Shown piece after piece: positions 2,161 through 48,010 of a stretch of 48,282 nt of DNA. A program made the position numbers and the translations under genes. The stretch is from Janibacter sp. Soil728 (GTDB lineage: Bacteria; Actinomycetota; Actinomycetes; Actinomycetales; Dermatophilaceae), in contig NZ_LMRZ01000009.1 of the NCBI RefSeq assembly GCF_001428305.1, forward strand, positions 1-48,282. The letters run 5' to 3'. Positions within the stretch are counted from its first letter, which is position 1, and each line of letters starts with the position of its first letter. The notes under the pieces were generated by a model, which worked only from the letters and a program-made list of their open reading frames with translations, was not told where the DNA came from and did not search any database.

Positions 2161-2358
2161 ATGTCCTCCTCGTCGAGTGTCGCGCGTCGTCGCGCGAACC
2201 TGTGTCGGCACCCACCTTTCACCCATGTCGTCTCGAGCACAACGGCGGGGTCCCCCTTCGTCGCCGGGCGAGGGACGCGGGGCGACGAGCGGTCTGCGAC
2301 AGGCCTGGGCACAGTGCACAGCGATGCGCCGCCAGGGCCGCTCGAAGGTTGCGCAGTC

Positions 2359-2392
2359 TGATCAGTGATCGGCCCATCCGTGGTGCTGATCA
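2359..2392. promoter_or_regulatory. inverted repeat between acs and aromatic hydroxylase (possible operator)
   Basis: TGATCAG at 2359-2365 and its exact complement CTGATCA at 2386-2392, 20 bases apart, in the 275-bp divergent intergenic region. The region also has a CG-rich hairpin at 2180-2197 in the acs leader and one CCCCCTTCGTC copy at 2252-2262. No clear -35/-10 pair could be assigned for the hydroxylase. A regulator site is inference only. Confidence 0.3.
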
Positions 2393-2435
2393 CCGAGATC
2401 TGGGACGGTGGGATGACCACAAGGAGGTGGTTTTC

Positions 2436-3356
2436 GTGTTCACCGAGGGGCAGTTGTACTCACCCGTGACCACACACGAGGACGGCACCGTCGAGGTGCA
2501 CCTCGCCGACACGCACCCGGGTCGTGACGATGCGCGGTACCTGCGCCGTCGTGGCGAGATCGCCGGGGCGGCTCTGGCCTGGACGCGGGGGAGCGAGGCC
2601 GTGCCCCACATCGAGTACACCTCGCAGGAGCACTCGGTGTGGAGTCGCGTCAGCGATGAGCTCGCGCCACTCCACGCGCGGTTCGCACACCGTGAGTACC
2701 TGGACGCCAAGGAGCGCCTTAACCTCCCGACCGAGCACGTGCCCCAGCTCGCCGAGGTGACCGAGCGGCTCCTCCCGCTCACCGGCTGGAGCTATGTGTG
2801 CGCGCCGGGGCTGGTCCCCCTTCGCGACTTCTACGCGGACCTCGGCAGCCGCACCTTCAACTCCACCCAGTACCTGCGTCACGGTTCCCAGCCGCTCTAC
2901 ACGCCGGAGCCGGACATCATCCACGAGGTCATCGGGCACGCCAACCAGCTGGCCAGCCCGCGCCTTGCCGCGATCACCGAGGCCGCCGGGCGGGCCTCGC
3001 TGCGCCTCGAGACCGAGGAGGCGATGAAGCTCGTCGCCGACATCTTCTGGTTCTCCATCGAGTTCGGCGTCATGTACGAAGGCACGGATCTGAAGGCCTA
3101 CGGCGCGGGGATCCTGTCGAGCTATGGGGAGATCCAGGAGTTTGCCCACATGGAGATCCGCGATCTCGACCTGGCCGCCATGGGCACGCTCAACTACGAC
3201 ATCACCGCCTACCAGCCGGTGCTCTTCGCCGCGCGATCGATGACCCACCTCGAGGACGTCGTCGGAGCCTTCTTCGCCACCGTCGACGACGATGCGGCGG
3301 CTGCCCTGCGAGCCGAGGCGGGCCGACGGGGACTGCTCCCCATGGCCCCGCACTGA
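2436..3356 (+). CDS. phhA: aromatic amino acid hydroxylase (phenylalanine 4-monooxygenase family)
   Basis: Tetrahydropterin- and Fe(II)-dependent aromatic amino acid hydroxylase of about 306 residues, close to the size of single-domain bacterial phenylalanine hydroxylases. Expected reaction: L-phenylalanine plus O2 to L-tyrosine. The iron ligands are visible as HEVIGH (His163 and His168) and the glutamate in FSIEFG (about Glu209). The GTG start at 2436 follows AAGGAGG (2421-2427) at good spacing; the frame stays open upstream but without family similarity. No pterin carbinolamine dehydratase (phhB) or homogentisate gene is adjacent, so cofactor recycling must be encoded elsewhere. Tyrosine or tryptophan specificity cannot be excluded from sequence alone. 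Confidence 0.88.
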   Translation: MFTEGQLYSPVTTHEDGTVEVHLADTHPGRDDARYLRRRGEIAGAALAWTRGSEAVPHIEYTSQEHSVWSRVSDELAPLHARFAHREYLDAKERLNLPTEHVPQLAEVTERLLPLTGWSYVCAPGLVPLRDFYADLGSRTFNSTQYLRHGSQPLYTPEPDIIHEVIGHANQLASPRLAAITEAAGRASLRLETEEAMKLVADIFWFSIEFGVMYEGTDLKAYGAGILSSYGEIQEFAHMEIRDLDLAAMGTLNYDITAYQPVLFAARSMTHLEDVVGAFFATVDDDAAAALRAEAGRRGLLPMAPH

Positions 3357-4129: not shown

Positions 4130-4138
4130 CACCCAGGG

Positions 4139-4176
4139 GACGAAGGGGGGAGGGCTGCGGCCCTGCCCCCTTCGTC
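4139..4176. terminator. bidirectional terminator built from two GACGAAGGGGG copies
   Basis: GACGAAGGGGG (4139-4149) pairs with CCCCCTTCGTC (4166-4176), with an inner GGGC/GCCC extension. It sits in the 61-bp gap between two convergent genes and can serve both. The arms are two copies of the dispersed motif described in the findings. Confidence 0.8.
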
Positions 4177-4190: not shown

Positions 4191-4769
4191 TCAGCGCCGG
4201 AGCTGGTCCGCGATGCCCGTGACGACGATCTGGAGGCCGGTGCCGAAGTCGCTCGGTGTGCGCTGTGCGGTGGTGATCCCTGAGCGGGTCGCGTGGGCGT
4301 GCGACTGCTCGTCGTAGGCATGGCCGTAGACGAAGTGCAGGAGCGTGCGGGCGGCGGTCGGCACGATGTCCTCGGGCAGTCCCGCGCCGGTCAGCACGCT
4401 GCGCAGCTCCTCGAAGGGGGCCTGCGCGCCCATCCCGAAGGCCCACATGCTCATGACGAGGTCGGCTCCGTCCGGGTAGCCGGTCACCGCGGCGTGGAGG
4501 TCCTCGCAGTGCAGGCGGACCCGCTCCTGCCAGGCCATGTCGTGGCTCGGTGTCCGCGGCCCGCGGGCAAGGATCTCGTCGGCGACGGAGCCGAGCAGGG
4601 CCTGCTTGTTGGCGTAGTGGTGGTACAGCGCGCTCTGCTGCACGCCGAGGTCGGTGCCGATGGCCCGCATCGTGAGGTCGGGCAGGCCGACCCGGGCGAG
4701 GATCTTCAGCGCAGTGTCGACGACCTGCTCGCGGGTGAGGGGGGAGCGGGGGTTGCGCGGGGGTGGCAC
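4191..4769 (-). CDS. bioQ: TetR-family repressor, BioQ-like
   Basis: TetR/AcrR regulator of 192 residues: helix-turn-helix near residues 28-60 (with QQSALYHHYANK as recognition helix) and a ligand-binding C-terminal domain. The gene is divergent from bioB, and the 151-bp gap contains two palindromes of the form TGAAC-N3-GTTCA, very close to the TGAAC-N3-GTTAC site reported for the actinobacterial biotin-gene repressor BioQ. That placement, plus family, supports BioQ-like control of bioB and of itself. The GTG start at 4769 is preceded by AGGGAG; a -10-like TAGGGT is at 4806-4811 on the minus strand, so the first operator overlaps its -35 region. Confidence 0.8.
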   Translation of the reverse strand: MPPPRNPRSPLTREQVVDTALKILARVGLPDLTMRAIGTDLGVQQSALYHHYANKQALLGSVADEILARGPRTPSHDMAWQERVRLHCEDLHAAVTGYPDGADLVMSMWAFGMGAQAPFEELRSVLTGAGLPEDIVPTAARTLLHFVYGHAYDEQSHAHATRSGITTAQRTPSDFGTGLQIVVTGIADQLRR

Positions 4770-4830
4770 AGGAGCTCCCTTCGAGGTGGTGGGCCGAGCG
4801 GTTTGACCCTACCTGCCGCCCCATCTAACC

Positions 4831-6007: not shown

Positions 6008-6051
6008 CATGACGAAGGGGGCAGAGCCGCGGCTCTCCCCCCTTCGTCATG
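6008..6051. terminator. bidirectional terminator between bioB and actP
   Basis: Outer 14-bp perfect stem (6008-6021 with 6038-6051, containing GACGAAGGGGG and its complement), one C/C mismatch, then an inner AGAGCC/GGCTCT stem. It lies in the 81-bp gap between convergent genes and can end both. It is a second case of the dispersed motif paired head-to-head. Confidence 0.85.
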
Positions 6052-8226: not shown

Positions 8227-9750
8227 TCAGGTGCCGTCGACGAGCACGTCCTCGGGGGTGTGCAGCCTCGTCATCGTCCGGGCCCAGCGTCGTGGCCGGG
8301 AGGCGGGCGTGAGCAGCGAGACGATGATCGTCACGGCGAAGGCCAGGGGTGTCGCCCACGCCGTGGGCGCCGCGACCAGTGCCCCCGGCCAGCCGGCAGG
8401 GGCGAGGTCCATGACGGACACGATCGCGGCCGCGGTCGTGGTCAGCCCACCCACCGCCACTCCAGCGGCTGCTCCCTTCGCCGTCAGTCGGGTCCACCAG
8501 ACACCGAGGATGAGCAGCGGCGCGAAGGTCGCGGCCGCGATGGCGAAGGCATGCCCGACCGCGGAGGAGATGCCGATCGGCTCGGCCGTGCAGGCGGCGA
8601 CGAAGGGGGCCAGTACACCGACGAGAGCAGCGAGGCGGAAGGAGGTGGCTGGGGCGACCTCGCCCCGGGACAGCCGGGCAGTGAGTGGCCGCAGGACGTC
8701 CTGGTCGATGGCGCCGGCGACCGACATCGCCACACCGGAGGCGGTGGCGAGGAAGGCGGCGAAGGCGCCGCCGGCGATCAGCGCGGTGAGCAGCTGACCG
8801 TCGAGCCCGGAGAGCATGGCGCCGGGGAGGGCGAGGACGACGGTGCGGCTGGCATCGCCCCCGACGTCACCGTGGTCGAGGTAGGCCCGGCCGAGGTAGC
8901 CGTAGACCGGCGGGAAGACGTAGAAGATGCTCAGCAGCGCCAGCACCGAGACGGTCGTGCGGCGGGCGGCGACGCCATCGGGGTTGGTGTAGAAGCGCAC
9001 GGCGATGTGGGGCAGGCCCATCGTGCCCAGGCACAGTGCGGCGAGGGTGCTGTAGGTCGTGAAGAGCGCGCGGCTCGTCGGTCCGTCGCTCGTGAGCGGC
9101 TCCCACCAGGACGCGGCGGCCTGCGGGGTGGGCCCGCCGGAGCGCTGCCACACCAGGAGCAGGACGAAGGCGGGGACGGCGATCGCCGTGAGCTTGATCC
9201 AGTACTGCACGGACTGGACCAGGGTGACCGAGCGCATGCCACCGGCGGCGACGTTGAGGACGACGATCACCGTGAGCACGGTGGCCCCGACCCAGGTGGG
9301 CAGGCCGCTGACGTGACGAAGGGCGAGGCCGGCGCCCTGCATCTGCGGCAGCAGGTAGAGCCAGCCGATCCCGACGACGAGCAGGGCGCAGCCACGTCGC
9401 AGGGTGCGCGACTCCAGTCGGGACTCAGCGAAGTCGGGGAGCGTGTACGCGCCGGAGCGCCGGAGGGGAGCGGCGATGAGGATGAGCAGGACGAGGTAGC
9501 CGACGGTGTAGCCGATCGGCATCCACAGCATGTCGATGCCGCGGTCGTAGACGAGACCGGCCACACCCAGGTAGCTCGCGGCAGAGAGGTACTCGCCGCT
9601 GATGGCGCTCGCGTTGCGCCATGGCGTGATGGCACGTCCCGCGACGTAGAAGTCGCTGGTGCCCTTGGCCAGGCGCAGGCCGAGAGCCCCGAGGGTGAGG
9701 GTGGTGAAGCAGACGAGGGCGATCGCCAGGACGCTGAGCGGCTGGCTCAC
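8227..9750 (-). CDS. second solute:sodium symporter (acetate/monocarboxylate type)
   Basis: SSS-family transporter of 507 residues, related to but distinct from the 6064-7671 protein: GEYLSAASYLGVAG near residue 50, GGMRSVTLVQ, and GTMGLPHIAVRFYTN. Predicted 13 membrane helices. The GTG start at 9750 overlaps the stop of the preceding DUF485 gene (GTGA); further upstream the frame remains open but covers the neighbour in another frame, so it is not part of this protein. It is the last gene of an operon with a DUF485 protein, a LytTR regulator and a LytS kinase, suggesting uptake of an organic acid that the kinase detects. Confidence 0.9.
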   Translation of the reverse strand: MSQPLSVLAIALVCFTTLTLGALGLRLAKGTSDFYVAGRAITPWRNASAISGEYLSAASYLGVAGLVYDRGIDMLWMPIGYTVGYLVLLILIAAPLRRSGAYTLPDFAESRLESRTLRRGCALLVVGIGWLYLLPQMQGAGLALRHVSGLPTWVGATVLTVIVVLNVAAGGMRSVTLVQSVQYWIKLTAIAVPAFVLLLVWQRSGGPTPQAAASWWEPLTSDGPTSRALFTTYSTLAALCLGTMGLPHIAVRFYTNPDGVAARRTTVSVLALLSIFYVFPPVYGYLGRAYLDHGDVGGDASRTVVLALPGAMLSGLDGQLLTALIAGGAFAAFLATASGVAMSVAGAIDQDVLRPLTARLSRGEVAPATSFRLAALVGVLAPFVAACTAEPIGISSAVGHAFAIAAATFAPLLILGVWWTRLTAKGAAAGVAVGGLTTTAAAIVSVMDLAPAGWPGALVAAPTAWATPLAFAVTIIVSLLTPASRPRRWARTMTRLHTPEDVLVDGT

Positions 9751-10889: not shown

Positions 10890-12089
10890 CTAGGCCGGTT
10901 CCTCGAGCGCGGGGGAGTACTTGGGTACCCGGAAGGAGACCCTCATCCCTGCACCCGGTGCCGTGTCGACGACCAGACCGAACTCTTCGCCGTAGACCTG
11001 ACGCAGCCGGGCGTCGACATTGCCCAGTCCCACGGAGTCGGCGCGCGACTGGCCGTCGAGGATCTTGCGGATCGCTTCGGGTCGGGCTCCGACTCCGTCG
11101 TCGTCGACGCTGATCTCGGCTTCGTTGCCGTGGTCGGTCGCGCTCAGCGTGACGTGGCCCGGCCCTTCCTTGGGTGCGAGCCCGTGGCGCACCGCGTTCT
11201 CGACGAGTGGCTGGATGGCGAGGTAGGGGACCCTCACGGACAGCACCTCCGGAGCGATCTTGAGCGTGATGGCGAGCCGGTCACCGAAGCGCGCCTGCTC
11301 CAGAACGAGGTAGCGCTCGACATTGCGCAGCTCCTCGCTGACGGTGGTGAAGGCGCCGCCGCGGCGCAGCGCATAGCGGGTGAAGTCGGCGAACTCGAGT
11401 AGCAGCTCGCGGGCCCGGGCGGGGTCGGTGCGCACGAAGGAGGCGATCGCTGCGAGCGAGTTGTAGATGAAGTGCGGGGAGATCTGGGCTCGCAGGGCCC
11501 GCAGCTCGGCCTCCATCGCGCGGGTCCGCTCGTAGCCGAGATCAGCCAGCTCGACCTGGGTGGCCACCCAGGACGCGACCTCCTCCGCTGCCCGGGCCAG
11601 ACCGGCGGACACGGCCGGGCCGTAGCCGGCGATGGCCCCGATGACCCGGTCGTCGACGACCACGGGGGCGATGACGGCGGCCCGGATCGGGCAGTCGGTG
11701 CTGGTGCAGGTCACGACATCCGGCCCGAGGACCACGGTCTGCCCTGAGGCGAGGACCTGCGCTGCCTGGTCCATGACGACAGGCAGGTGGTGCCTCCCTT
11801 CGCCCTCCCAGACGATGACGCTGGAGGCATCGCAGATCGCCAGACCGGGGGTCGCGAGCATCGCCTTGAGATAGGGGGCCGCGCGCTCGCAGCCGTCGTC
11901 GGTGAAGCCGTCGGCGAGGTGTCTGGCGGCCTCGGAGGCGGTGTGCAGGGTCTCGTAGGTCGCTTGGTCGGTGACCGAGATGAAGCCGGGGCGGGCCCGG
12001 CGCCACCGCACGAGGGTGACGACCAGCCAGAGCGCGAGGAAGGCGCCCGTGACCACCACCACAGTGGGGAGGTGCAGGCCGGCAGTCAT
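10890..12089 (-). CDS. LytS-type sensor histidine kinase
   Basis: 399 residues: one N-terminal membrane helix (about 8-28), a GAF-like sensory domain (about 60-175), the His_kinase motif with phospho-acceptor His206 in QISPHFIYNSL, and a HATPase domain with N-box NAVRHGL and glycine boxes DDDGVGAR and GLGNVDAR. The GAF region has a small cysteine group (CTSTDC), which might bind a cofactor. The transcript looks leaderless: TAGGGT (minus strand, 12101-12096) followed by six bases and the ATG. The kinase is first in an operon with its LytTR regulator, DUF485 and symporter. The ligand is unknown; a short-chain carboxylate is inference from context. Confidence 0.92.
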   Translation of the reverse strand: MTAGLHLPTVVVVTGAFLALWLVVTLVRWRRARPGFISVTDQATYETLHTASEAARHLADGFTDDGCERAAPYLKAMLATPGLAICDASSVIVWEGEGRHHLPVVMDQAAQVLASGQTVVLGPDVVTCTSTDCPIRAAVIAPVVVDDRVIGAIAGYGPAVSAGLARAAEEVASWVATQVELADLGYERTRAMEAELRALRAQISPHFIYNSLAAIASFVRTDPARARELLLEFADFTRYALRRGGAFTTVSEELRNVERYLVLEQARFGDRLAITLKIAPEVLSVRVPYLAIQPLVENAVRHGLAPKEGPGHVTLSATDHGNEAEISVDDDGVGARPEAIRKILDGQSRADSVGLGNVDARLRQVYGEEFGLVVDTAPGAGMRVSFRVPKYSPALEEPA

Positions 12090-12121: not shown

Positions 12122-12976
12122 GTGTCTGACTCCAGCCCTCTCGTTGCCGCACTGACCCAGCTCGCCGCCCTGCCCGAGGTGGCGGCGGCCTCCGATCACG
12201 CCCGAGAGGTGTGTACCCAGCTGCGCTGGCACGAGGCACTACGCCGGCGGATCCCCGAGGCCTCGGCCGAGTCACGGGTGCGCGGCGCCTGGGCGAGCGC
12301 GGAGCTCGACGGCGCGCGCTCGACCGCGTCGATCGTGCGCGAGATCATGATGGGGAGCCGGGAGCGCAGTGCCGACCCGGACCCGGCAGAGCGCGTGATC
12401 CACGGCGCGATCGCGGCCACGGCCGAGAGCGAGCACCTGCGTGATCTGGTGACGCGGTCACCCGGTCAGGCACTGGCGCGTCTGCACACCGCCGCCGCCG
12501 CGCAGCTCGTGGGCGATCGCGACCAGCTCGGCCGGCCGCGGATCGAGGGGGAGGGGTGCGAGGAGTTCGCCGACCTCGGTCCTGCGCCGACGGGAGCCGA
12601 GCTGCGACGGCGTCTCGACGGGATCATCGAGCTGATGCGCTCGGCCAGCGAGGCTCCTGCCCTCGTGGTCGCGTCGATCGTCCACGCCGAGATCGCGACC
12701 GTCCGTCCCTTCGTCGTCGGCAACGGTCTCGTCGCCCGCGCCGTCGAGCGCACGCTCATCGCCGCCACGGGACTGGACCCGACCGGTGTCGCGGTGCCCG
12801 AGGCCGGCCACGGGCACGAAGGGGGGCCGGCCTACCTCGGCTCGCTCAACGGGTACGTGCACGGCGGGTCTCCGGGGGTCTCGCTGTGGCTGAAGCATTG
12901 CGGCGACTCGCTCGTGGCGGGTGCCGAGGAGGGCTGGCGGGTGGCCGAGTCGGTCCGGGCCGGGCGGCTCGGCTGA
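12122..12976 (+). CDS. Fic-domain-like protein with degenerate active site
   Basis: 284 residues. The second half has the fold signature of Fic/DOC proteins: a helix ending in VHAEIATVRPF followed by VVGNGLVAR. The canonical catalytic motif is HPFx(D/E)GNGRxxR; here the catalytic His is Arg, the acidic residue is Val and the first Arg is Leu, while GNG and the last Arg remain. It is therefore unlikely to be an active AMP-transferase and may be a non-catalytic member of an actinobacterial branch found next to the cpaE-like/6C region. An N-terminal helical region (1-120) resembles the Fic N-terminal helical part. Leaderless GTG start. Followed by a 297-bp gap with the 6C RNA. Confidence 0.7.
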   Translation: MSDSSPLVAALTQLAALPEVAAASDHAREVCTQLRWHEALRRRIPEASAESRVRGAWASAELDGARSTASIVREIMMGSRERSADPDPAERVIHGAIAATAESEHLRDLVTRSPGQALARLHTAAAAQLVGDRDQLGRPRIEGEGCEEFADLGPAPTGAELRRRLDGIIELMRSASEAPALVVASIVHAEIATVRPFVVGNGLVARAVERTLIAATGLDPTGVAVPEAGHGHEGGPAYLGSLNGYVHGGSPGVSLWLKHCGDSLVAGAEEGWRVAESVRAGRLG

Positions 12977-13142: not shown

Positions 13143-13273
13143 CGGCCGCGGTGCTCCGGTGTCCGACCACGGTGGTCCGGTGCTCGTCCACAGGCGCTGC
13201 GGGACGAAGGGGGTTGTCCCCAGTCGTGTGACCAGCCAGCCGGAGGGCCGGGCGGCGCGGCAGGGTCGCGGGC

Positions 13274-22795: not shown

Positions 22796-22801
22796 GTGAT
22801 C

Positions 22802-22808: not shown

Positions 22809-22813
22809 GGCGG

Positions 22814-36074: not shown

Positions 36075-37415
36075 TCAGAGCCAGGCGCCGAAGGCGAGCG
36101 GCTCGCGGGTGAAGCGGTAGGTCGCCCAGTTGAAATGGCTGACCCCACCCGACTCGTCTCGCTGCACCCGCAGCAGCTCGCCGCTCTCGCGACCGGAGAC
36201 CGTGCGGTACCGGTCGGCGCCCTCGGCCTCGAGCACCGACGGCGGCTGCTCCTTGGGCTGGCCAGCGACGCGGGCCTCGAGCTTGCCCTCCCGCACCGAC
36301 AGCACGAAGTGGGATCCCTCCGAGTACCAGTGCCCGAGGAGCGGGACGAGGTCCTCGGGGACCGTGGTGCCGGGCTGCCACGGCTCGGGGACGACGGGTT
36401 CGCGCTCGATCGCGATGGTGCCGAGGTCGATCGCGGCGGCACCCGGCGCGACGGGCGCGGAGTTGTTCATGAAGATCAGGCCCGTCGTGGCAGAGGAGCG
36501 CTCGGTGAATACCCCGGTGATCGAGCCGGGCCAACCGCCCGTGTGACCGACCCAGGTGCGCCCCTCGTGCCGGACGAGCTGCAGTCCCAGGCCCCAGGCT
36601 GAGGTCCAGCCGATCGTGTCCGACACGACCTGCGGCTGGCACATCTCCTCGAGAGTGTCGGGGGAGAGGATCTCCTCCACGGGGGACGCGATGAAGCCGC
36701 CCCACCGGGCCATGTCGGTCAGGGTGGATCGCAGCCCGCCGGCCGGGTCCATGGCGCGCGCCTCGAAGACCGGCTCCTCGAGCGGCACATCGGCGAAGGG
36801 GGGCACGTAGTACCCCTTCGCCCGGCGACCGGTAGGGGCGGTCCCGGTGCGCGTCATCTCGAGGGGGTCGAGGATGCGGCGTCGGATCGACTCCTCCCAG
36901 GGGCAGTCGTCGAGGCGGGAGATGATCTCGCCGAGGAGGGAGAAGCCGAGGTTGGAGTAGTGCCACCGGTCGTGCGGTCGGCCGACCCGCTCGGCCCGGG
37001 ACCACCCCGCGAGCAGCTCCTCGCGGGTGGGCATGACCATCGTGTCGAAGACGTCGCCGATCGGCTCGCGCTGCATCCCGGAGGTGTGCGAGAGCAGCTG
37101 GCGGATGGTCACGCGGGCGTGCGAGCTGTCGGACAGGTGGGTCTCGACGGTGTCGTCGAGGTCGAGCCGGCCCTCGTCGCGCAGGGCCATGACGGCGACG
37201 GCGGTGAAGGTCTTGGAGTTGCTGGCGACCGCGTACTGGGTGTCGTCGTCAGGCGCGTCGCCGGGGGAGGCGAGGTCGATCGTCCCGATCCCGGTGGACC
37301 ACTCCAGAGCTCCTGCACGCGCCACGCCGGCGGCGAGGCCCGGGACCCGACCATCGGTCTGGGCGGTCAGGGCGCGGATGGTGAGGGCTCGGCCGGTCTC
37401 GTCGCTGAAACTCAT
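36075..37415 (-). CDS. serine hydrolase, beta-lactamase/class C-like
   Basis: 446 residues. Active-site motifs of the penicillin-binding-protein fold: SNSK (Ser65, Lys68), HYSNLG (Tyr-Ser-Asn triad) and GHTGGWPG. A C-terminal beta domain of about 100 residues (from PEDLVPLLGHWYSEG) resembles the accessory domains of D-aminopeptidases and esterases of this family. No signal peptide, so probably cytoplasmic; a hydrolase or peptidase rather than a resistance enzyme. Start ATG 37415: -10 TACGTT stands seven bases upstream, giving a leaderless transcript. Confidence 0.88.
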   Translation of the reverse strand: MSFSDETGRALTIRALTAQTDGRVPGLAAGVARAGALEWSTGIGTIDLASPGDAPDDDTQYAVASNSKTFTAVAVMALRDEGRLDLDDTVETHLSDSSHARVTIRQLLSHTSGMQREPIGDVFDTMVMPTREELLAGWSRAERVGRPHDRWHYSNLGFSLLGEIISRLDDCPWEESIRRRILDPLEMTRTGTAPTGRRAKGYYVPPFADVPLEEPVFEARAMDPAGGLRSTLTDMARWGGFIASPVEEILSPDTLEEMCQPQVVSDTIGWTSAWGLGLQLVRHEGRTWVGHTGGWPGSITGVFTERSSATTGLIFMNNSAPVAPGAAAIDLGTIAIEREPVVPEPWQPGTTVPEDLVPLLGHWYSEGSHFVLSVREGKLEARVAGQPKEQPPSVLEAEGADRYRTVSGRESGELLRVQRDESGGVSHFNWATYRFTREPLAFGAWL

Positions 37416-37457: not shown

Positions 37458-38465
37458 TCACTTCTGGATGAAGCCCTCGCTCCGTAGCCACCCGATGGCG
37501 ACATCGGCCGGGTCCTTGCCCTCGACGTCGACCTGGGCGTTGAGCTCGATGAGGACGCCGTCGGTGAGCTTGGCGGTCACGGGGTTGAAGAGGTCGGCCA
37601 CGGCGGGGAAGGACTCCATGACGGCCTCGGTCACGACGGGTGCGACGTTGTACTTCGGGAAGAAGGCCTTGTCGTCCTCGAGCACCGTGAGGTCGAGGGC
37701 CTTGATCCGGCCGTCGGTGGTGAAGACCTCACCGAAGGTGCAGGTGCCGTTGTCCGTCGCGGAGTAGATCGCTCCGGTGTCGAGGACCTTGACATTGCTG
37801 TCCGGGAAGTCCTTGCCCTTGGTCAGCCCATAGGTCTTGAGCATTGGCACGAAGCCGTCGTTGCGGTTGTTGAACTCGGACTCCACGCAGAAGGTCAGGT
37901 CCTTCTTGGGCACCTCCGACAGCTGCGACAGCTTGGTGATCCCGAGCTTCTTGATCGTCTCGCTCGGGCCGGCGAAGCCGTAGGTGTTGTTCATCGGCGC
38001 CGGCGGGAGCCAGATGAGGTCGTTGTCCTTCTTGTCCCGGTCGCGCACGGCCTCGTACTGCTTCTGCTCGTCCGGGATCGGCGTCGTCTCGCCGAGGTAG
38101 GCGATCCAGGCGGTGCCGGTGTACTCCCACTGCATCTGGACCTGGTTCTCGAGCATCGCCTGGCGGGCGCTGGAGGAGCCGGGGATGTTGGTCAGGTCGG
38201 GTGCGTCCGCGCCGGCGGCGCGCAGCACGATGACCGCCATCTTGCCCAGCACCAGCTGTTCGGTGAAGTTCTTGGAGCCGACGGCGATCTTGGCCCCGGA
38301 GAGGTCCACGTCGGCGATCGGGCCGGCGAGCTGCCCGGACGGGACGAAGCCGCCACTCGTACCCAGTCCGCACCCGGAGAGGCTCAGACCGAGCAGGCCT
38401 GCCCCGCCGAGGACCAGTGAGCGACGGGAGGGGCCGCTGGACGAAGGGAGCAGGTGTCGACTCAT
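37458..38465 (-). CDS. osmoprotectant ABC transporter substrate-binding lipoprotein (OpuCC/ProX)
   Basis: 335 residues: twin-Arg-like N-terminus PSRRSLVLGG, lipobox LSGC (about Cys32), then an OpuAC-type binding domain with the diagnostic motif VGSKNFTEQ and PAPMNNTYGFAG. Expected ligands are glycine betaine, choline, carnitine or related quaternary amines. Its ATG overlaps the permease stop by one base. Fourth gene of the permease-ATPase-permease-SBP operon. Confidence 0.92.
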   Translation of the reverse strand: MSRHLLPSSSGPSRRSLVLGGAGLLGLSLSGCGLGTSGGFVPSGQLAGPIADVDLSGAKIAVGSKNFTEQLVLGKMAVIVLRAAGADAPDLTNIPGSSSARQAMLENQVQMQWEYTGTAWIAYLGETTPIPDEQKQYEAVRDRDKKDNDLIWLPPAPMNNTYGFAGPSETIKKLGITKLSQLSEVPKKDLTFCVESEFNNRNDGFVPMLKTYGLTKGKDFPDSNVKVLDTGAIYSATDNGTCTFGEVFTTDGRIKALDLTVLEDDKAFFPKYNVAPVVTEAVMESFPAVADLFNPVTAKLTDGVLIELNAQVDVEGKDPADVAIGWLRSEGFIQK

Positions 38466-39244
38466 CACGTGGTCCCCTTCGGGGTGAGCAGCACTTCGAG
38501 CACGCGACCGGCCCAGTCCACGAGCAACGCGACGACCGCGATGATGACGGCGCCGCTGACGAGGATGGAGTACCGGAAGAGGTTGATACCCGTGGTGATG
38601 AGCGCGCCCAGCCCGCCGGCGTTGATGAAGGTCGCGAAGGCCGCTGCGCCCACCACCAGCACGAGGGCGGTACGCACGCCGGCCATGATGACCGGCATGG
38701 CGAGGGGCAGCTCGACTCGTCGGAGCACGTCGACAGCCGACATGCCCATCCCCCTGGCCGCCTCGACCAGGGTCTGGTCGACCTGCTGCAGTCCGACGAT
38801 CGTGTTGCGCAGCACGGGCAGGAAGCCGTAGATGGCCAGGCTGAGCACCGCGGTCCTGGTGTTGAAGCCGAGCCAGATGGCCAGCAGGACGATGAGCCCG
38901 ATCACGGGCGCCGCCTGGCCGGCGTTGGCGAAGCCCGTGACGAAGCCGGAGTACCGGCGGAAGGAGCCGCGGGTGAGCAGGATTCCGGCGGGGATCGCGG
39001 TGACGAGGACGACCGCGGTGGTGATCAGGGTGAGGACGATGTGCTGACGGGTGAGCTCCAATATCGTGCCCCACGCGAGCTGACGGGCCTCGATGTCGTC
39101 GAGGTCGGCGGTCTGCCGCCAGATGCTCCACCCACCGAGGATCACCGCGCACAGCAGGGGGAGGCCGATGAGCAGCCGGATCGTCGTCTTGCGGTCCTCG
39201 ACACCGGTGTCGACCGTGCTGACCTGCCGGGTGGCGTCGCTCAT
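38465..39244 (-). CDS. osmoprotectant ABC transporter permease 2
   Basis: 259 residues, BPD-type permease with an N-terminal anchor helix and about five further helices. The coupling loop is ARGMGMSAVDVLRRVELPLAMPVIMAG (EAA-type). Start ATG 39244 overlaps the ATPase stop (ATGA). Forms the membrane channel with permease 1 (40428-41069). Confidence 0.92.
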   Translation of the reverse strand: MSDATRQVSTVDTGVEDRKTTIRLLIGLPLLCAVILGGWSIWRQTADLDDIEARQLAWGTILELTRQHIVLTLITTAVVLVTAIPAGILLTRGSFRRYSGFVTGFANAGQAAPVIGLIVLLAIWLGFNTRTAVLSLAIYGFLPVLRNTIVGLQQVDQTLVEAARGMGMSAVDVLRRVELPLAMPVIMAGVRTALVLVVGAAAFATFINAGGLGALITTGINLFRYSILVSGAVIIAVVALLVDWAGRVLEVLLTPKGTT

Positions 39245-40428
39245 GACGGCGAGCTCTCGGACGTCGAGCGGATGTGCTCGGTGACCGCGGTGAAGGTCAC
39301 GACGCCGAGGAACTCGTCGCGGCGACCGGTGACGAGCACGCCGCCGTGCGAGCTGGCGAGCATGGAGTCGAGTGCGTCGTTGATCGTCGCGCGACGGTCG
39401 ACGACGGAGATGTCCTCGTGCGACTCCTGCGGTAGCCGACTCATCCGGGTGGCCTCTCCGAGGCTGTACCACCCGACAGGGCGTCGTCGGGCGTCCAGCA
39501 CGATGACGTCCTTCTGCCCGGCGGCCCGCGCTGCTGCGGCGGCGGCACTCCCTTCGTCCCCGACCGAGGCGATCACCGGCTGCTGCAGCTCCAGCTCGTC
39601 GACGCGCGAGAGGCTCAGCTGCTTGAGCGAGGAGCCGGAGCCGACGAAGTCCTCGACGAACTCGTCGGCGGGGTTGGACAGGATCTCCTGCGGGGTGTCG
39701 TACTGCGCGACGTGCGCGCCCTCGCTCAGCAGGAGGATGCGATCGCCGAGCTTGATGGCCTCGTCGATGTCGTGGGTGACGCAGACGATCGTCTTCTGCA
39801 GCTCCTCCTGGATGCTCATCAGCTCGTCCTGCAGGCGCTGCCGGGTGATCGGGTCGACGGCGCCGAAGGGTTCGTCCATGAGCAGGACCGGCGGGTCGGC
39901 GGCGAGACCGCGGGCGACGCCCACGCGCTGCTGCTGACCGCCGGAGAGCTCCTTGGGGTAGCGGTTGCGGTATCGCGAGGGGTCGAGTCCGACGAGCTCG
40001 AGCAGGTCCTCCACGCGAGCGGCGATGTCCTTCTTGTCCCACTTGAGCAGGCCGGGCACGAGGGCGATGTTCTCCTCGACGGTCATGTGCGGGAAGAGCG
40101 AGCCACCCTGGATGACGTAGCCGATGGTGCGTCGCAGCTCGGTCGCGTTCTTGCTGCGGATGTCCTCGCCGTCGATGGTGATCGTCCCGGAGGTCGGTTC
40201 GTGCAGCCGGTTGATCATCTTCAGGGTGGTCGTCTTGCCGCAGCCCGAGGGGCCGATGAACATGACGATCTTGCCTGCCGGGACGGTGAGGGAGAGGTTG
40301 TCGACCGCTGGGGTGCTCTGCCCCGGATAGGTCTTGACGACATTGTCGAAGACGATCTCGGCCCCGCTGACCGCGCTGGTCGGGGAGTCCTTCTCCGGTG
40401 CGGGCTGACCGCTCGTGGTGGTGGACAT
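39241..40428 (-). CDS. osmoprotectant ABC transporter ATPase with C-terminal CBS pair
   Basis: 395 residues: ABC domain with Walker A GPSGCGKTT, Q-loop YVIQGGSLFPHMTV, signature LSGGQQQRVGVARG and Walker B VLLMDEPFGAVDP; followed by a CBS-domain region (about 300-385), which in OpuA-type transporters senses ionic strength and gates activity. Between the two is a Ser/Ala-rich linker. ATG 40428 overlaps the stop of permease 1 by one base. Confidence 0.94.
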   Translation of the reverse strand: MSTTTSGQPAPEKDSPTSAVSGAEIVFDNVVKTYPGQSTPAVDNLSLTVPAGKIVMFIGPSGCGKTTTLKMINRLHEPTSGTITIDGEDIRSKNATELRRTIGYVIQGGSLFPHMTVEENIALVPGLLKWDKKDIAARVEDLLELVGLDPSRYRNRYPKELSGGQQQRVGVARGLAADPPVLLMDEPFGAVDPITRQRLQDELMSIQEELQKTIVCVTHDIDEAIKLGDRILLLSEGAHVAQYDTPQEILSNPADEFVEDFVGSGSSLKQLSLSRVDELELQQPVIASVGDEGSAAAAAARAAGQKDVIVLDARRRPVGWYSLGEATRMSRLPQESHEDISVVDRRATINDALDSMLASSHGGVLVTGRRDEFLGVVTFTAVTEHIRSTSESSPS

Positions 40429-41069: not shown

Positions 41070-41197
41070 GATCAGTCCTCCCGCACCCGACGCTCGGGTT
41101 CACCCTCACCCAACCCCTGTACGGCTCGGGGTGACGAGGCCCGGCTCCACCGCAACCCACTTGTGACCATCCGCCATCGGCTGTCATCCCCGTGGCT

Positions 41198-41203
41198 TAA
41201 GGT
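41198..41203 (+). promoter_or_regulatory. -10 element of leaderless tmk transcript
   Basis: TAAGGT followed by seven bases and the GTG at 41211; no ribosome site. The start is chosen on this and on the family N-terminus. Confidence 0.55.
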
Positions 41204-41210
41204 CGACGAC

Positions 41211-41828
41211 GTGACGGACAGTGGGTACTTCATCGCCTTCGAGGGTGGCGACGGCGCGGGCAAGTCGACGCAGGTGCGTCACCTCGTGGCGGCGCTCGAG
41301 GAGGCTGGGCGCGAGGCCGTCGTGACCCGCCAGCCGGGCGGCACGACACTGGGCTTAGCGCTCCGCGACCTGGTGCTGCACGGTCAGGCAGTCTCGCCTC
41401 GGGCAGAGGCGCTGATCTTCGCCGCGGACAAGGCCCAGCACGTGCAGGAGGTGGTCCTCCCTGCGCTCGCCCGCGGAGCGGTGGTCGTCACCGACCGCTA
41501 CACGGACTCGTCGGTCGCCTACCAGGGTGCGGGCCGTTCGCTGGGCGCTCAGGAGGTCGCTGACCTCCAGGGGTGGGCCGTGGGCGGTCTGACCCCGCAC
41601 CTCACCGTGCTCGTCGACGTCGACCCTGCCGAAGGGCGGCGACGTCGCGGCGGTACGCACGACCGGATGGAGTCGGAGGCCGACGCCTTCCACACTGCCG
41701 TCCGTGAGCACTTCCTTGCGATGGCGAAGGGGGACCCCGCTCGCTATCTCGTCGTCGACGGCACCACCCCGCCGCAGGAGATCGCCGAGCAGGTCCGGCA
41801 ACGACTGGTGCACGAGGGCCTGCTGTGA
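41211..41828 (+). CDS. tmk: thymidylate kinase
   Basis: 205 residues. P-loop FEGGDGAGKST near the N-terminus, DR(Y/H) motif VVTDRYTDSSVAYQG, and the LID segment GRRRRGGTHDRME. Phosphorylates dTMP to dTDP. Its stop overlaps the holB start (GTGA), the usual tmk-holB pairing. Confidence 0.95.
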   Translation: MTDSGYFIAFEGGDGAGKSTQVRHLVAALEEAGREAVVTRQPGGTTLGLALRDLVLHGQAVSPRAEALIFAADKAQHVQEVVLPALARGAVVVTDRYTDSSVAYQGAGRSLGAQEVADLQGWAVGGLTPHLTVLVDVDPAEGRRRRGGTHDRMESEADAFHTAVREHFLAMAKGDPARYLVVDGTTPPQEIAEQVRQRLVHEGLL

Positions 41829-43083: not shown

Positions 43084-44616
43084 ATGAGTCTTCGAGCGCG
43101 CCGCCCCCTTCGTGTCGTGGCCGTTGCGGTGGCGTTCCTCCTGTCGATGTCGGGATGCTCCCTGCTCGAGCCGGACGTCGCGCCGACGGGGCTGACGACC
43201 GGGGACAAGAAGCCGCCCAAGGGGTCGAAGGGCCTGGAGCCCTTCTACGAGCAGGCGCTCCAGTGGGGCGACTGCGACACCGGCTCGGGGGAGTGCGCAA
43301 AGCTCACGGTCCCCATGGACTACGACAACCCGGGCGGCAAGACGATCGAGATCGCCGTGCTGCGGATGAAGGCCAAGAAGAAGGCCGCCGGCTCCCTCGT
43401 CGTCAACCCCGGCGGGCCGGGCGGCTCGGGCGTCGACTACGCGGCTGCGGCCGACAACATCGTCAGTGCTCAGATCCGGCGGCACTTCGATGTCGTGGGC
43501 TTCGACCCGCGGGGTGTCGGGCGCTCGGCCCCCATCGACTGCCTGAGCGACTCCGACCTGGACGCCTACCTGGCGAAGGACCCGACCCCTGACACCGCCG
43601 AGGAGCGGACGGCGGACGACGCGGACCAAGCAGCCTTCGCCGACGGGTGCAAGGCCAAGAGCGGGGAGCTCCTGGGCCATGTCTCGACGGCGGAGGCGGC
43701 GCGCGACATGGACGTGCTCCGGGCGGCACTCGGCGACGGCAAGCTGACCTATCTCGGGAAGTCCTACGGCACCTATCTCGGCGCGACCTACGCAGACCTC
43801 TTCCCCGACCGCGCTGGCCGTCTCGTGCTCGACGGGGTAATGCCCCCCGACCTGTCGGCGGAGGAGTCCGTCATCGGCCAGGCCACAGGCTTCGACACCG
43901 CGACCAGGTCGTGGGCGCGCAGCTGCGTCGACAACGACTGCCCGCTCGGCAACAGCGTGGACGAGGTCGTCAAGAACGTGCAGGACCAGCTGGTGCAGCT
44001 CGACCAGAACCCGCTGCCGGCGTCGGCAGGCATCGAGCTGACGGAGGGGTGGGCGACCTATGGCATCGCGCAGGCTCTCTACGACCAGGGGATGTGGTCG
44101 CAGCTGACCGATGCCCTCGTCAGTGCGCAGGACGGCGACGGTAGTCCGCTCGCCCAGCTCGGACGCGCCTACGCGGGTCGCGACGCGAACGGCCGCTACG
44201 CGACGAACCTCTTGGAGGCGCTCCCTGCCGTCAACTGCCTTGACCGCACCGAGGAGGGCAATGACCAGCAGGCGCTCATCGACAAGGCCGTCGCGGCGGC
44301 ACCGATCTGGGGCCGCGCGCTGGCCTGGGAGTCCCCGTGCCCCCAGTGGCCGGTCGACGCCACCAACACCCCTCACGAGGTCGCCGCGAAGGGGGCCGAC
44401 CCGATCCTCGTCGTCGGCACCACCCGCGACCCGGCCACGCCGTACGAGTGGGCCGTCCGCCTGCACGAGCAGCTCGCGGACTCGGCTCTCATCACCCACG
44501 AGGGCGACGGCCACACCGCCTACATGCGGCAGAACGACTGCGTCGACAAGGCGGTGGACCAGTACTGGCTCACCGGCAAGACACCTGAGGGCGACGAGCT
44601 GACCTGCAAGGAGTGA
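43084..44616 (+). CDS. secreted alpha/beta hydrolase lipoprotein (tripeptidyl aminopeptidase family)
   Basis: 510 residues: signal peptide with lipobox MSGC (about Cys22), then an alpha/beta hydrolase with nucleophile elbow GKSYG, oxyanion-hole stretch NPGGPGGSG, and a C-terminal TAP-like domain (from about 395) containing VGTTRDPATPYEWA and the catalytic His in EGDGHTAYM. Related to actinobacterial SlpD/SlpE and mycobacterial Hip1-type proteases, which trim exported peptides. Chosen start is the ATG just before the signal sequence rather than any upstream codon. Confidence 0.92.
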   Translation: MSLRARRPLRVVAVAVAFLLSMSGCSLLEPDVAPTGLTTGDKKPPKGSKGLEPFYEQALQWGDCDTGSGECAKLTVPMDYDNPGGKTIEIAVLRMKAKKKAAGSLVVNPGGPGGSGVDYAAAADNIVSAQIRRHFDVVGFDPRGVGRSAPIDCLSDSDLDAYLAKDPTPDTAEERTADDADQAAFADGCKAKSGELLGHVSTAEAARDMDVLRAALGDGKLTYLGKSYGTYLGATYADLFPDRAGRLVLDGVMPPDLSAEESVIGQATGFDTATRSWARSCVDNDCPLGNSVDEVVKNVQDQLVQLDQNPLPASAGIELTEGWATYGIAQALYDQGMWSQLTDALVSAQDGDGSPLAQLGRAYAGRDANGRYATNLLEALPAVNCLDRTEEGNDQQALIDKAVAAAPIWGRALAWESPCPQWPVDATNTPHEVAAKGADPILVVGTTRDPATPYEWAVRLHEQLADSALITHEGDGHTAYMRQNDCVDKAVDQYWLTGKTPEGDELTCKE

Positions 44617-45276: not shown

Positions 45277-46149
45277 TCACAGCGAGCCTGCAGCCTCGAA
45301 GGACCTTCCGCTGCGGCTACCCCGGACGAGGACGCGTTCGAGGACGCTCACGATCGCGAAGAGAGCGAGACCGATGATCGAGAGGAATCCGATTCCGGCG
45401 AAGACGGTGACGGTGTCGAGGTTGCCTCTGGCCTGGGTGATGACCACACCCAGGCCGTTGTCGGCGCCGACAAACTCCGCGACGACCGCACCGACGACGG
45501 CTAGGGTGATCGCGACCTTGGCGCCGGCGAAGATGCTCGGTAGCGCCCATGGGAAACGGACCTTCCAGAAGGCCTGCCACCTGCTGGCCCCCATCGACCG
45601 GACGAGCATGAGGCTCTCGGGCCGCGCCGCCTGGAACCCGACGACGGCGTCCACCACGAGCGGGAAGAAGGCGATCAGCACGACCATGAAGACCTTCGGC
45701 GCGGTGCCGAAGCCGAACCAGATGATGAACAGCGGCGCCAGCGCGACCTTGGGGACGACCTGGGACAGCACGAGCAGGGGGTAAATGGCCCTCTGAAGCA
45801 GCGGACTGTAGACCATCCCGATGGCGATGGGGAGCGCGATGAGGATCGAGATGACGAACCCGACGATGATCGCCGTGAGCGTCGGGATCGAGGCTGTCCA
45901 GAAGAGGCCGGCGTCGCTCACCATGGCCTTGGCGATGTCCCACGGGGCGGGCAGCACATACTGCTCGACGAGGCCCGCGCTCGAGATCGCCTGCCACGCG
46001 GCGAGCATCACGCAGATCAGGGCGATCGCCGGCCACACGCCGCGAAGAGCCACCAGCCCATGGCCGAGGAGGCGCTGCGGCCGGGGTGCCACGCCTCGCG
46101 GTCGGGTGATCTTGTCTTTCGTTGCGGCCATCTGAGTCACTCCACTCAC
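45277..46149 (-). CDS. ABC transporter permease (SsuC/TauC family)
   Basis: 290 residues, about six membrane helices, EAA loop RSMGASRWQAFWKVRFPWALP. Family transports aliphatic sulfonates, taurine, nitrate or thiamine precursors. GTG 46149 overlaps the ATPase stop (GTGA); ATG 46131 is an alternative start six codons later. Third gene of the operon. Confidence 0.9.
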   Translation of the reverse strand: MSGVTQMAATKDKITRPRGVAPRPQRLLGHGLVALRGVWPAIALICVMLAAWQAISSAGLVEQYVLPAPWDIAKAMVSDAGLFWTASIPTLTAIIVGFVISILIALPIAIGMVYSPLLQRAIYPLLVLSQVVPKVALAPLFIIWFGFGTAPKVFMVVLIAFFPLVVDAVVGFQAARPESLMLVRSMGASRWQAFWKVRFPWALPSIFAGAKVAITLAVVGAVVAEFVGADNGLGVVITQARGNLDTVTVFAGIGFLSIIGLALFAIVSVLERVLVRGSRSGRSFEAAGSL

Positions 46150-46961
46150 CTGCTGACGGGGTCGCGGTCGGAAAAGATCCCGAGCTTGCCGAACTCGTCG
46201 CGGATCTCGTTGACATAGGCCGTGAACTCCGCGGAACCGCGGTCGGCGACGTGCCTGGGCCGCGGCAGGTCCACACGGATGTCCGCGGCGATGGTGGCTG
46301 GGCGGGGGGACAGGACGATGACCCGGTCAGCGAGGAAGACGGCTTCCTCAATGCTGTGGGTGATGAACATGACCGTCCGACGGGACTTCAGCCACAGATT
46401 CTGCAGATCCATCTGGACCTGGTCGCGGGTGATTGCGTCCAGGGCACCGAAGGGCTCGTCCATGAGCAAGATCGACGGGTCGTGCAGGAGCGCCCGGCAC
46501 AGCGAGACTCGCTGCTGCATCCCGCCCGAGAGCTCGTCCGGGTAGTGGTCCTCGAAGCCAGCCAGCCCGACATCCGCGAGCAGCTGACGGGCCCGCTCCG
46601 TCAGCGACCCCTTGGGCAACTTGCGCACCTCGGCCTGGAGGAGCACGTTCTCCAGCGCTGTGCGCCACGGGAGCAACTCGGCGTTCTGGAAGACGACACC
46701 TGCCTCGGTCACTGGACCTGCGATCGTGCGCCCCTTCAGACTGACGGTTCCGTTGGTCGGGGTGGTCAGGCCGGCGAGCGCCAAGAGCAGGGTGCTCTTG
46801 CCGCACCCGCTTGGGCCGACGATGGCGAGAAAGTCCCCTTCGTCCACGGTCAGCGACAGGGCTTCGATCGCGGCGACTTTCCCCCCCTTCGTTGCGAAGC
46901 TCTTCTCGACCTCGTCGAATTCGACATAGGACCGCAACGCAGCCGTGTCGTTCGGGGTCAC
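46146..46961 (-). CDS. ABC transporter ATPase (SsuB/TauB family)
   Basis: 271 residues: Walker A GPSGCGKST, Q-loop VFQNAELLPWRT, signature LSGGMQQRVSLCRA, Walker B ILLMDEPFGALD and switch His in FITHSIEEAV. GTG 46961 overlaps the stop of the binding-protein gene. Cytoplasmic motor of the same transporter. Confidence 0.93.
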   Translation of the reverse strand: MTPNDTAALRSYVEFDEVEKSFATKGGKVAAIEALSLTVDEGDFLAIVGPSGCGKSTLLLALAGLTTPTNGTVSLKGRTIAGPVTEAGVVFQNAELLPWRTALENVLLQAEVRKLPKGSLTERARQLLADVGLAGFEDHYPDELSGGMQQRVSLCRALLHDPSILLMDEPFGALDAITRDQVQMDLQNLWLKSRRTVMFITHSIEEAVFLADRVIVLSPRPATIAADIRVDLPRPRHVADRGSAEFTAYVNEIRDEFGKLGIFSDRDPVSR

Positions 46962-48010
46962 TTGTCACTCCCGAGATCGTCCGTGCATTCCCCGGGCAGG
47001 TACTGGTTGGTTGCGGAGTCGGCAACGGTGGCCGAACCCTCGGCGACGTCGCCGAACTTCTCCATCATCCCGATGGTCTCCTCCCAGTCCTTCTTGGCCG
47101 TGCAGCCGACTCCCTGACCCTTCGTGCTACCGGTGTGGAGCAGTTTGCTGGAGTTCTTCCACTGGTCGGCGACTTGCTCGGGCTTGAGCTTGCTGTCCTT
47201 GTCGACCTTGAAGAAGGCGTCGACGGCTGCATCGGTGTCCTTGTTGGCGAACTCCACGGACTCCACGAGAGCCGCGAGGAACTTCTTGGTGGTCTCGGGG
47301 TTCTTCTTCAGGAAGTCGTCGCCGACGACGATGCCCGAGCTCAGCGTGTTGACCCCGGCGTCGGCGTAGGTGAAGGTCTCCAACTCGCAGTCGCAGGCCA
47401 GCTTAAGGTTGGGCAGGCTGACATTGGTCAGGCCGAACGTGAAGTCGGTTTTGCCGCCGAGGAAGAGCTGGGTCCGCGTCGGGATGTCGACATTGCGGAA
47501 GGTCACCTTGCTGTCGTCTATCCCCACCGCCTCCGCATAGGCCGGGAAGAGTCGCTCGGCTGCCGAGCCCGGCGTGTAGCCGGCGGTCTTGCCCTCGAGG
47601 TCGGCGGGCTTTTTGATGTCGGAGTCCTTGAAGGCGATGATCGTCATCGGTGACTCTTGGACCATTCCGGCGACCATGGTGACGTCCATGCCCTGCCCCA
47701 CGGACTGGACCATCGTGGCCGCGTCGGCGTAGCCCATGTCGTCCGAGCCGTTGGCGACGGTCTGGATGGTGGTCGCCGATCCCGTGCCCTCCTTGAGGTC
47801 GACCTTGAGGCCGTGCTTCTCGAAGATCCCGGTCTGGACGCCGGCGACGAGGGGGAGCACAGCGCCCGTGTAGTAGACGTCCGTGCGGATGGTCACCGAG
47901 TCGGTGTTCTCCTTTGCTCCGGAGTCAGACTCACCGCACGCGGTGAGCAGAGCAACGGACGTGGTGGCGGCGAGGGCTCCCGCGAGAGCGCGGTGGTGGC
48001 GAATGGACAC
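46958..48010 (-). CDS. ABC transporter substrate-binding lipoprotein (NMT1/SsuA-like)
   Basis: 350 residues: signal peptide with lipobox LLTAC (about Cys26), then an NMT1/THI5-type periplasmic-binding domain (TDVYYTGAVLPLVAGVQTGIFEKHGL, GYTPGSAAERLFP). Ligand not identifiable; sulfonates, nitrate or pyrimidine precursors are typical. GTG start at 48010 after AAAGGAGA. First gene of the transporter operon, with a promoter at 48052-48079. An extra cysteine pair (CDCELETF) is present in the C-terminal half. Confidence 0.9.
   Translation of the reverse strand: MSIRHHRALAGALAATTSVALLTACGESDSGAKENTDSVTIRTDVYYTGAVLPLVAGVQTGIFEKHGLKVDLKEGTGSATTIQTVANGSDDMGYADAATMVQSVGQGMDVTMVAGMVQESPMTIIAFKDSDIKKPADLEGKTAGYTPGSAAERLFPAYAEAVGIDDSKVTFRNVDIPTRTQLFLGGKTDFTFGLTNVSLPNLKLACDCELETFTYADAGVNTLSSGIVVGDDFLKKNPETTKKFLAALVESVEFANKDTDAAVDAFFKVDKDSKLKPEQVADQWKNSSKLLHTGSTKGQGVGCTAKKDWEETIGMMEKFGDVAEGSATVADSATNQYLPGECTDDLGSDK

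Follow-up and report, generated by a model that had tools for sequence, protein, structure and literature searches.

Why should one short word recur on both strands, inside as well as between genes, along a stretch of actinobacterial DNA? The question is raised by 48,282 nucleotides from Janibacter sp. Soil728 (hereafter the window), which form contig 9 of a genome of 3.64 Mb in 10 contigs (G000). The best form of the word is a nine-base core, CGAAGGGRG, with a weaker GR in front. Judging from sequence comparisons, it is reasonably probable that this word is a DNA uptake sequence of Janibacter and of a related genus (g54). A preference for such words has been described in the Neisseriaceae and Pasteurellaceae.

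Results

An earlier note on the window had reported 11 exact copies of GACGAAGGGGG, and every coordinate was correct (2252, 4139, 4166, 6011, 6038, 8599, 13203, 24650, 27315, 28057 and 28468), against 0.04 copies in dinucleotide shuffles. We counted 62 copies of CGAAGGG (8.0 in shuffles, with a maximum of 15 over 100 shuffles) and 22 of GACGAAGGG, which agrees with the about 60 and about 22 that had been counted by eye. The expected numbers given there were somewhat low compared with the third-order Markov expectation (20.9 for CGAAGGG, 2.5 for GACGAAGGG and 0.14 for GACGAAGGGGG), although the excess itself stands. Likewise, the near-equal orientation of GAAGGG was borne out, but not the exact numbers, as 36 copies lie on the forward and 42 on the reverse strand instead of about 31 and 40. 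When all of the 8- to 11-mers of the window were ranked by their excess over the Markov expectation, a test akin to the one that the note had proposed for the whole genome, forms of the word came out on top. The three head-to-head pairs that had been read as terminators are present at 4139/4166, 6011/6038 and 28882/28906.

To find the boundaries of the word, GRCGAAGGGRG was altered one base at a time, and the copies of each variant in 848 kb from two genomes (G000 and G009) were compared with those in synonymous shuffles. One-base variants of GAAGGG reached 0-1.6 fold of the expectation, and all six of its bases are thus indispensable. The first C is preferred (variants at that position, 3-4 fold), the base directly before it is free (5-12 fold) and R is required at the tenth position; the counts of words with one mismatch are partly lowered by the shuffle itself and serve solely to show a lack of enrichment. 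Because of these position-by-position counts, the core is CGAAGGGRG with a weaker GR before it, which means that the word described earlier was real but its boundaries were slightly off. The window has 39 copies of this core. A sample of 448 kb was drawn from the window's genome, made up of the window and of 20 spaced stretches of contig 1, each of 20 kb. At its 526 CGAAGGG sites, GR in front of the seven bases and RG behind them were the only clear signals. In the same sample, CGAAGGGGG was observed 237 times compared with 17.7 expected under the Markov model, a test that is independent of the gene calls and agrees with the gene-based tests.

The excess extends over the whole genome. With the reversed word as the control, G000 contains 2,345 copies of CGAAGGGRG (38 reversed), 954 of GACGAAGGG (28 reversed) and 450 of GACGAAGGGGG (4 reversed), the forward and reverse strands being nearly equal in each case. 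G009 is the most word-rich genome (2,601 core copies), and G000 and G009 carry one core per 1.2-1.6 kb. The 16 genomes of the genus (the Janibacter genomes) have 894-2,601 core copies each, compared with 20-113 in 42 other genomes of the same search, and 15 of them exceed 1,000, the exception being G001 with 894. The comparison with relatives, which had also been proposed earlier, restricted the word to Janibacter and g54. Among 186 genomes of the family, GRCGAAGGGRG was found 471-1,559 times in all 16 Janibacter and 927-1,309 times in all three g54 genomes, so that each of these 19 has at least 471 copies, whereas the remaining 167 genomes, from 51 genera, have 2-33. In an order-wide sample of 396 genomes from 109 genera, more than 900 copies occurred only in the three Janibacter and two g54 genomes included, the other 391 having 0-34. 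A tree of the 30 closest TopA proteins, which was built without an outgroup root, placed 15 Janibacter, then G001 with the three g54 genomes, then 11 others on one side (99/95), and is consistent with a single origin of the word.

The shorter GACGAAGGG is modestly over-represented elsewhere in the family: nine genomes of other genera have 45-149 copies of it and 15-45 of the reversed word. At the upper end stands G024, from another genus, with 149 copies of GACGAAGGG against 26 reversed, yet without an excess of CGAAGGGRG (50 against 53 reversed).

Codon choice does not account for the word. In the samples of G000 and G009, the core was observed 492 times in genes compared with 63.7 after synonymous shuffling, i.e., 7.7-fold. 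For GRCGAAGGGRG the numbers were 150 against 12.9 in G000 and 138 against 12.7 in G009, and dinucleotide-aware synonymous resampling gave similar expectations of 11.5 and 15.0, respectively. This supports the earlier suggestion that selection acts on the DNA itself, as the counts are far from a codon-aware expectation. Suitable peptide contexts were filled up to 91%: the word was found in 68 of 75 (G000) and 66 of 75 (G009) contexts of the form [STAP]-Pro-Phe-[VADEG] (17.8 and 21.6 in shuffles) and in 81 of 109 and 69 of 88 contexts of the form [STAP]-Lys-Gly-[VADEG] (13.8 and 7.0). These two most permissive frames are nearly saturated in the sampled DNA, while with all frames pooled 263 of 651 and 237 of 619 contexts carry the word. 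Nine loci of other genera, 188 kb in total, had no core word in their genes, where 3.0 were expected. Called genes contained 263 of 345 sampled copies in G000 and 237 of 327 in G009 (500 of 672 in total), which shows that the word is not confined to gene ends and that terminators alone do not explain it.

The word has no preferred orientation. In genes, GRCGAAGGGRG was found in sense and antisense 76 and 74 times in G000 and 64 and 74 times in G009, and a role as an RNA signal is disfavoured because the copies lie on both strands of genes. The polarity test that the earlier note had suggested revealed none: the core lies on the leading and lagging strands 156 and 150 times in G000 and 164 and 163 times in G009 (320 and 313 in total), with a 95% interval of 0.466-0.545 for the leading-strand fraction. 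For this test, the origin was set by dnaA (at base 481 of the single contig of G009) and the terminus was assumed to be opposite. The GC skew switches sign at dnaA in contig 1 of G000; in G009 the half-genome skew is near zero, and its replichores rest on dnaA and gene strand bias. The word thus lacks the strong origin-to-terminus strand polarity of segregation motifs such as the FtsK-orienting polar sequences (KOPS), and the absence of replichore polarity disfavours Chi, KOPS or a similar role.

Core density was 0.639 (G000) and 0.650 (G009) per kb in genes and 2.22 and 2.54 per kb between genes, a 3.5-3.9-fold difference. Core pairs less than 60 bp apart were inverted in 46 cases and direct in four, compared with 112 and 44 for 200 permuted words together. 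GRCGAAGGGRG was densest between convergent genes (2.6-2.9 per kb) and sparsest between divergent genes (0.8-1.0), and its copies, with gaps of up to 80 bp excluded, were spaced a little more evenly than at random (coefficient of variation 0.88 and 0.80).

The sites are conserved. G000 and genome G012 were aligned over 112 kb, with 90.3% identity. Of 74 core sites, 66 were kept compared with 680 of 1,353 (about 50%) sites of 271 permuted words (Fisher P 5e-12), and the longer word stayed a match more often than permuted words in all eight named Janibacter loci, with 2-13 sites each. Inserted DNA, in contrast to the DNA around it, is poor in the word. No core word occurs in an insertion of 9.3 kb in G009 (L267:16418-18000 and L242:1-7768), which carries a Vsr endonuclease and a C5 methylase, while the adjoining 4.3 kb has ten, which makes a sharp border to word-rich DNA; 7.7 kb of the insertion hold one CGAAGGG, with a GC content of 67% compared with 74% in the adjoining DNA. 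Similarly, two core words were counted in a 20-kb stretch of genome G110 that contains a phage integrase, compared with 8-16 in six other stretches of that genome. As to the two bases that follow CGAAGGG, G000 and G009 mainly have GG or AG and the three g54 genomes mainly GG or GT, with G109 and G001 as exceptions.

The window itself holds a Tad/Flp pilus locus with TadA, TadB, TadC, a Flp-type pilin of the DUF4244 family and two proteins that resemble Tad pseudopilins, all on the forward strand. Its first gene (13274-13990), which had no Pfam match, is presumably TadZ/CpaE-like by position and look. It is followed by the tadA ATPase gene (T2SSE; 13987-15024; PF00437, E 1e-50), part of what is possibly an uptake pilus, by tadB (15021-15698) and tadC (15695-16246), both T2SSF (PF00482), by the pilin gene (16924-17058; PF14029, E 8e-17), by a TadE-like minor pilin gene (17078-17410; PF07811, at 19.9 bits below the family cut-off of 22.9) and by a gene for a TadF/G-like protein (17397-17768; PF13400). 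TadA of the window is 93% identical to that of Janibacter limosus and 83-91% to those of seven more Janibacter loci, the next matches being at most 65%. The N-terminus of the pilin resembles the Micrococcus luteus Flp sequence as printed in PMC6370729, and for this reason we take the locus to be of the tad-2 type. A tad-1 type locus (tadA, tadB, tadC, flp, tadE, tadF and tadG) lies elsewhere in G000 and has counterparts in G001 and in G109 and G110. As the earlier note had advised, further competence genes were looked for and found: ComEA, with SLBB and helix-hairpin-helix domains, adjoins ComEC (798 aa) in G000, comEC is present in all 16 Janibacter genomes (38 of 39 genomes searched overall) and dprA also in all 16, in 15 of them over the cut-off. 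Transformation of M. luteus is described as requiring its two tad loci as well as ComEC, and orthologues of ComEA and DprA are named (PMC4322843). The com, dprA and tad part of the predicted machinery was found but is not limited to the clade, a partial search gave no DNA receptor among the pilins, and the tad-1 locus of G009 is broken.

Discussion

We favour an uptake sequence because preferential uptake followed by recombination predicts the following traits, which were found: the word should be clade-specific, non-polar and strand-symmetric, it should occupy permissive codons as well as the DNA between genes, its copies should form inverted pairs, and foreign DNA should lack it. The likeness to uptake sequences that had been noticed from the window alone is thereby strengthened, with the codon-independent excess, the conservation of sites and the com and tad genes pointing the same way; its traits are not clean in two respects, the lineage dialects and the intactness of the machinery in every strain. 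In the proposed mechanism, a putative receptor on a Tad/Flp competence pilus would bind the word on double-stranded DNA outside the cell, which would thus favour the uptake of DNA of its own kind. ComEA and ComEC would presumably carry one strand in, and recombination, by DprA and then RecA, would fix the incoming copy. Since word-bearing fragments would have the better chance of entry, recombination would spread any mutation that gives rise to the word, and in time most of the permissive positions would be occupied; inverted pairs may have become terminator-like hairpins, as in Neisseria.

The Janibacter word shares many traits with the DNA uptake sequence (DUS) of the Neisseriaceae, which is read by the minor pilin ComP. 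According to PMC3630211 and PMC1852404, insofar as they treat these traits, the DUS is also short and non-palindromic, occurs in thousands of copies in genes and intergenic DNA and forms inverted pairs at terminators. It varies by lineage, and the variation in the bases that follow the Janibacter core, though not clean, recalls these Neisseriaceae dialects (PMC3630211). The Janibacter word differs from the DUS in sequence and in its host, a Gram-positive actinobacterium with Tad/Flp pili, and is known here from genome sequences. The uptake signal sequence (USS) of the Pasteurellaceae, with ComN/PpdA as the predicted receptor, is similar in its length of about 9-11 bases, its generally at least 1,000 copies and its terminator pairs, as described in parts of PMC1852404 and PMC12616744. 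Compared with the USS, the Janibacter word is unrelated in sequence, has no clear flank signal and would be read by a different type of pilus. The USS has AT-rich flanks. Transformation in M. luteus, which belongs to the same phylum, involves the same kinds of genes (two tad loci and comEC; PMC4322843), and the term "uptake sequence" does not occur in the text of that paper. Literature searches, whose coverage left out most subscription papers and preprints, gave no report of an uptake word in Actinobacteria/Actinomycetota, including Micrococcus and Janibacter, in line with the earlier remark that none had been described for actinobacteria.

We lean, though only just, towards a wider proposal, namely that Janibacter and g54, a Gram-positive lineage, evolved a self-recognising uptake system independently of Neisseria and Haemophilus, whose word, with its lineage variants, would be read by a Tad/Flp competence pilus. 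No earlier uptake sequence would then come from beyond the Gram-negative families or be linked to a pilus of this type. If so, a third, independent case with a different pilus could be used to ask why such words arise, for which the 19 genomes with the word and the 167 family members without it offer a contrast. It would also follow that some Janibacter strains are naturally transformable and that word-bearing markers transform far better.

Several observations weigh against an uptake sequence. In G009, the most word-rich genome, the word-free insertion breaks tad-1: the TadA match covers only residues 1-267 of 409, neither tadB nor tadC turned up in the 30 kb that were read around the locus, tadE and tadG match one shortened frame and tadF is absent. 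If tad-1 is required as in M. luteus, G009 would have lost its competence. Competence genes get lost in this way in other bacteria. Either G009 lost competence recently and the words remain, or tad-1 is dispensable, or the word serves something else. No receptor was identified among the tad-1 pilins, as word-rich and word-poor genera have tad-1 in common and most of its pilins in the word clade are acidic (12 loci read, the G009 locus being without them). The tad-2 pilins gave no candidate in a search with a loose pattern that missed most genes, and the Flp pilin is similar in word-poor loci. A partial search for a clade-specific pilin, a receptor of the kind of ComP or the predicted ComN, found none, ComP itself not having been searched for. 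ComEC, present in 38 of 39 genomes, does not account for a word in this clade alone, and literature searches gave no report of competence in Janibacter.

The sites themselves also provide opposing points. Base identity within them exceeded that of permuted words in only four of the eight named Janibacter comparisons. No recombination footprint was seen between G000 and G012, and divergence did not fall close to the sites (identity was 0.892 up to 50 bp away and 0.893 beyond 1 kb), so either inter-species recombination is not concentrated at the sites or the test was too weak. The three sampled stretches nearest to the origin had 10, 6 and 9 core words compared with a mean of 15.3. The split between dialects is not clean, as G109 of g54 has AG (17) besides GT (28), and G001 fits neither dialect, its AG form occurring at one site in a 140-kb sample. 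G001 is placed in the Janibacter genus with only 894 core copies and groups with g54 in the tree of the one gene topA; it may be losing the word or belong to another genus.

An extra Tad cluster (SAF, ParA-like, divergent TadA, TadB, TadC, pilins and a BTAD or LysM protein) was considered as the determinant of the word and was rejected after a profile search. At first it appeared in four of four Janibacter and two of three g54 genomes and clearly in none of 17 others. Across 184 genomes, the cluster was missing from the word-rich G003, G005, G007, G013 and G109, whose matches (E 1e-60 to 1e-54) were no better than those of other Tad ATPases, whereas the word-poor G088 and G100 reached E 1e-230 to 1e-228, and many more genomes were intermediate; this outcome, too, counts against an uptake system. 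The cluster is patchy (L172:563-9720 and L175:3245-12382) and is perhaps mobile, as a phage integrase lies near the L175 copy.

Among the other explanations, the main one is a non-polar, Chi-like recombination site. The Janibacter RecBCD would recognise CGAAGGGRG in one of the strands, upon which it would stop degrading DNA and begin to load RecA. We consider this unlikely. The enzyme for such a role exists in Janibacter, which is itself a point against uptake: RecB passed the curated cut-off in 14 of 16 Janibacter genomes but in only 4 of 23 other relatives, with long matches below it in three more of the latter (recB loci L263-L266). Moreover, like Chi sites, the word is short, asymmetric and over-represented, and it is G-rich; the broken tad-1 locus of G009, which would be irrelevant to Chi, lowered our confidence in uptake and raised that in Chi. 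The conservation of sites and their absence from the insertion would suit Chi as well, a motif of the core genome according to part of PMC8022716. The same source names leading-strand polarity among the traits that define Chi, which is polarised with replication, whereas the Janibacter word is distributed 320 to 313. The predominance of inverted over direct close pairs and the intergenic enrichment also speak against Chi, as does the word-poor G024, which has RecB over the cut-off but no excess of the core. We know of no inverted pairs as a trait of Chi.

A non-polar, dispersed, clade-limited word on both strands could also be the binding site of a clade-specific nucleoid or chromosome-organising protein that is spread along the chromosome. 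This is improbable in our view, since it predicts neither the inverted pairs at gene ends nor the near-saturation of permissive codons, and no such protein with thousands of nine-base sites is known to us, which counts against it further. That the word is methylated or otherwise marked, and is kept for self-recognition inside the cell or for defence, seems very improbable: the logic of a self-mark suits the clade limits and the absence from the insertion, but the C5 methylase that was seen lies in the word-free insertion of one genome and, to our knowledge, modification recognition sites are not as a rule several-fold enriched in genes, which also speaks against it. We give hardly any credence to a terminator sequence combined with mutational or codon bias, functionless in genes. 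It would explain the inverted pairs between genes, but it is already contradicted by the many copies on both strands of called genes, by the 7.7-fold excess over synonymous shuffles and by the lack of enrichment of near-miss words.

Sites and other repeats in the window and its relatives

Gene calls were made with a small custom gene finder and some are wrong, e.g., 20471-23119(-) in the window resembles an antisense frame. Two head-to-head pairs of GACGAAGGGGG and CCCCCTTCGTC, with two core words each, lie at 4139-4176 and 6011-6048, and a GACGAAGGG pair that is shorter than the full core lies at 28880-28914; all three are flanked by convergent genes and form terminator-like hairpins. The single copies of GACGAAGGGGG are found between called genes at 2252-2262(-), with the core at 2252-2260, at 13203-13213(+), directly upstream of the Tad locus, and at 27315-27325(+), and antisense within genes at 8599-8609(+) in 8227-9750(-), at 24650-24660(-) in 24205-24873(+), and at 28057-28067(-) and 28468-28478(-) in 27363-28874(+). 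The last gene also has an antisense core word at 27433-27441(-).

The core form CGAAGGGAG is intergenic at 4775-4783(-) and 13046-13054(-). It lies in sense at 8472-8480(-) in 8227-9750(-), 11794-11802(-) in 10890-12089(-), 23342-23350(+) in 23240-24208(+) and 39548-39556(-) in 39241-40428(-), and in antisense at 31055-31063(-) in topA and 38442-38450(+) in 37458-38465(-). Five more copies of it fall in the doubtful gene call, at 21273-21281(-), 21309-21317(+), 21825-21833(-), 21975-21983(-) and 22514-22522(+). The form CGAAGGGGG is antisense at 1989-1997(+) in 226-2160(-). The remaining core words are intergenic at 30316-30324(+), upstream of topA, and at 43104-43112(-). Those in sense are at 12817-12825(+) in 12278-12976(+), 14820-14828(+) in tadA, 29953-29961(-) in 29462-30232(-), 32312-32320(+) in topA, 34283-34291(+) in 33736-35313(+), 41725-41733(+) in 41163-41828(+), 44387-44395(+) in 43129-44616(+) and 46883-46891(-) in 46146-46961(-). 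Antisense copies are at 2816-2824(-) in 2436-3356(+), 4412-4420(+) in 4191-4769(-) and 36794-36802(+) in 36075-37415(-), the last with an opposite-strand CGAAGGG at 36814. The pyrimidine dimer DNA glycosylase (Pyr_excise) gene at 35607-36044 carries no core word.

Other repeats were also observed. G001, the word-poorest Janibacter genome, has clusters of GCGCAACTGCCCGGGCA at L180:4729-4776 and L181:19635-19771, and CCCGGGCAGTT was counted 27 times over both strands in 140 kb of it. A palindromic repeat, TGCATTGCC(C/A)TAGGGCAATGCA, which is sometimes in tandem, was found at L091:15674-15723, L088:5764-5825 and L094:3219-3238, and the 448-kb sample of the window's genome held 38 half-matches to it, 25 of which lie outside called genes.

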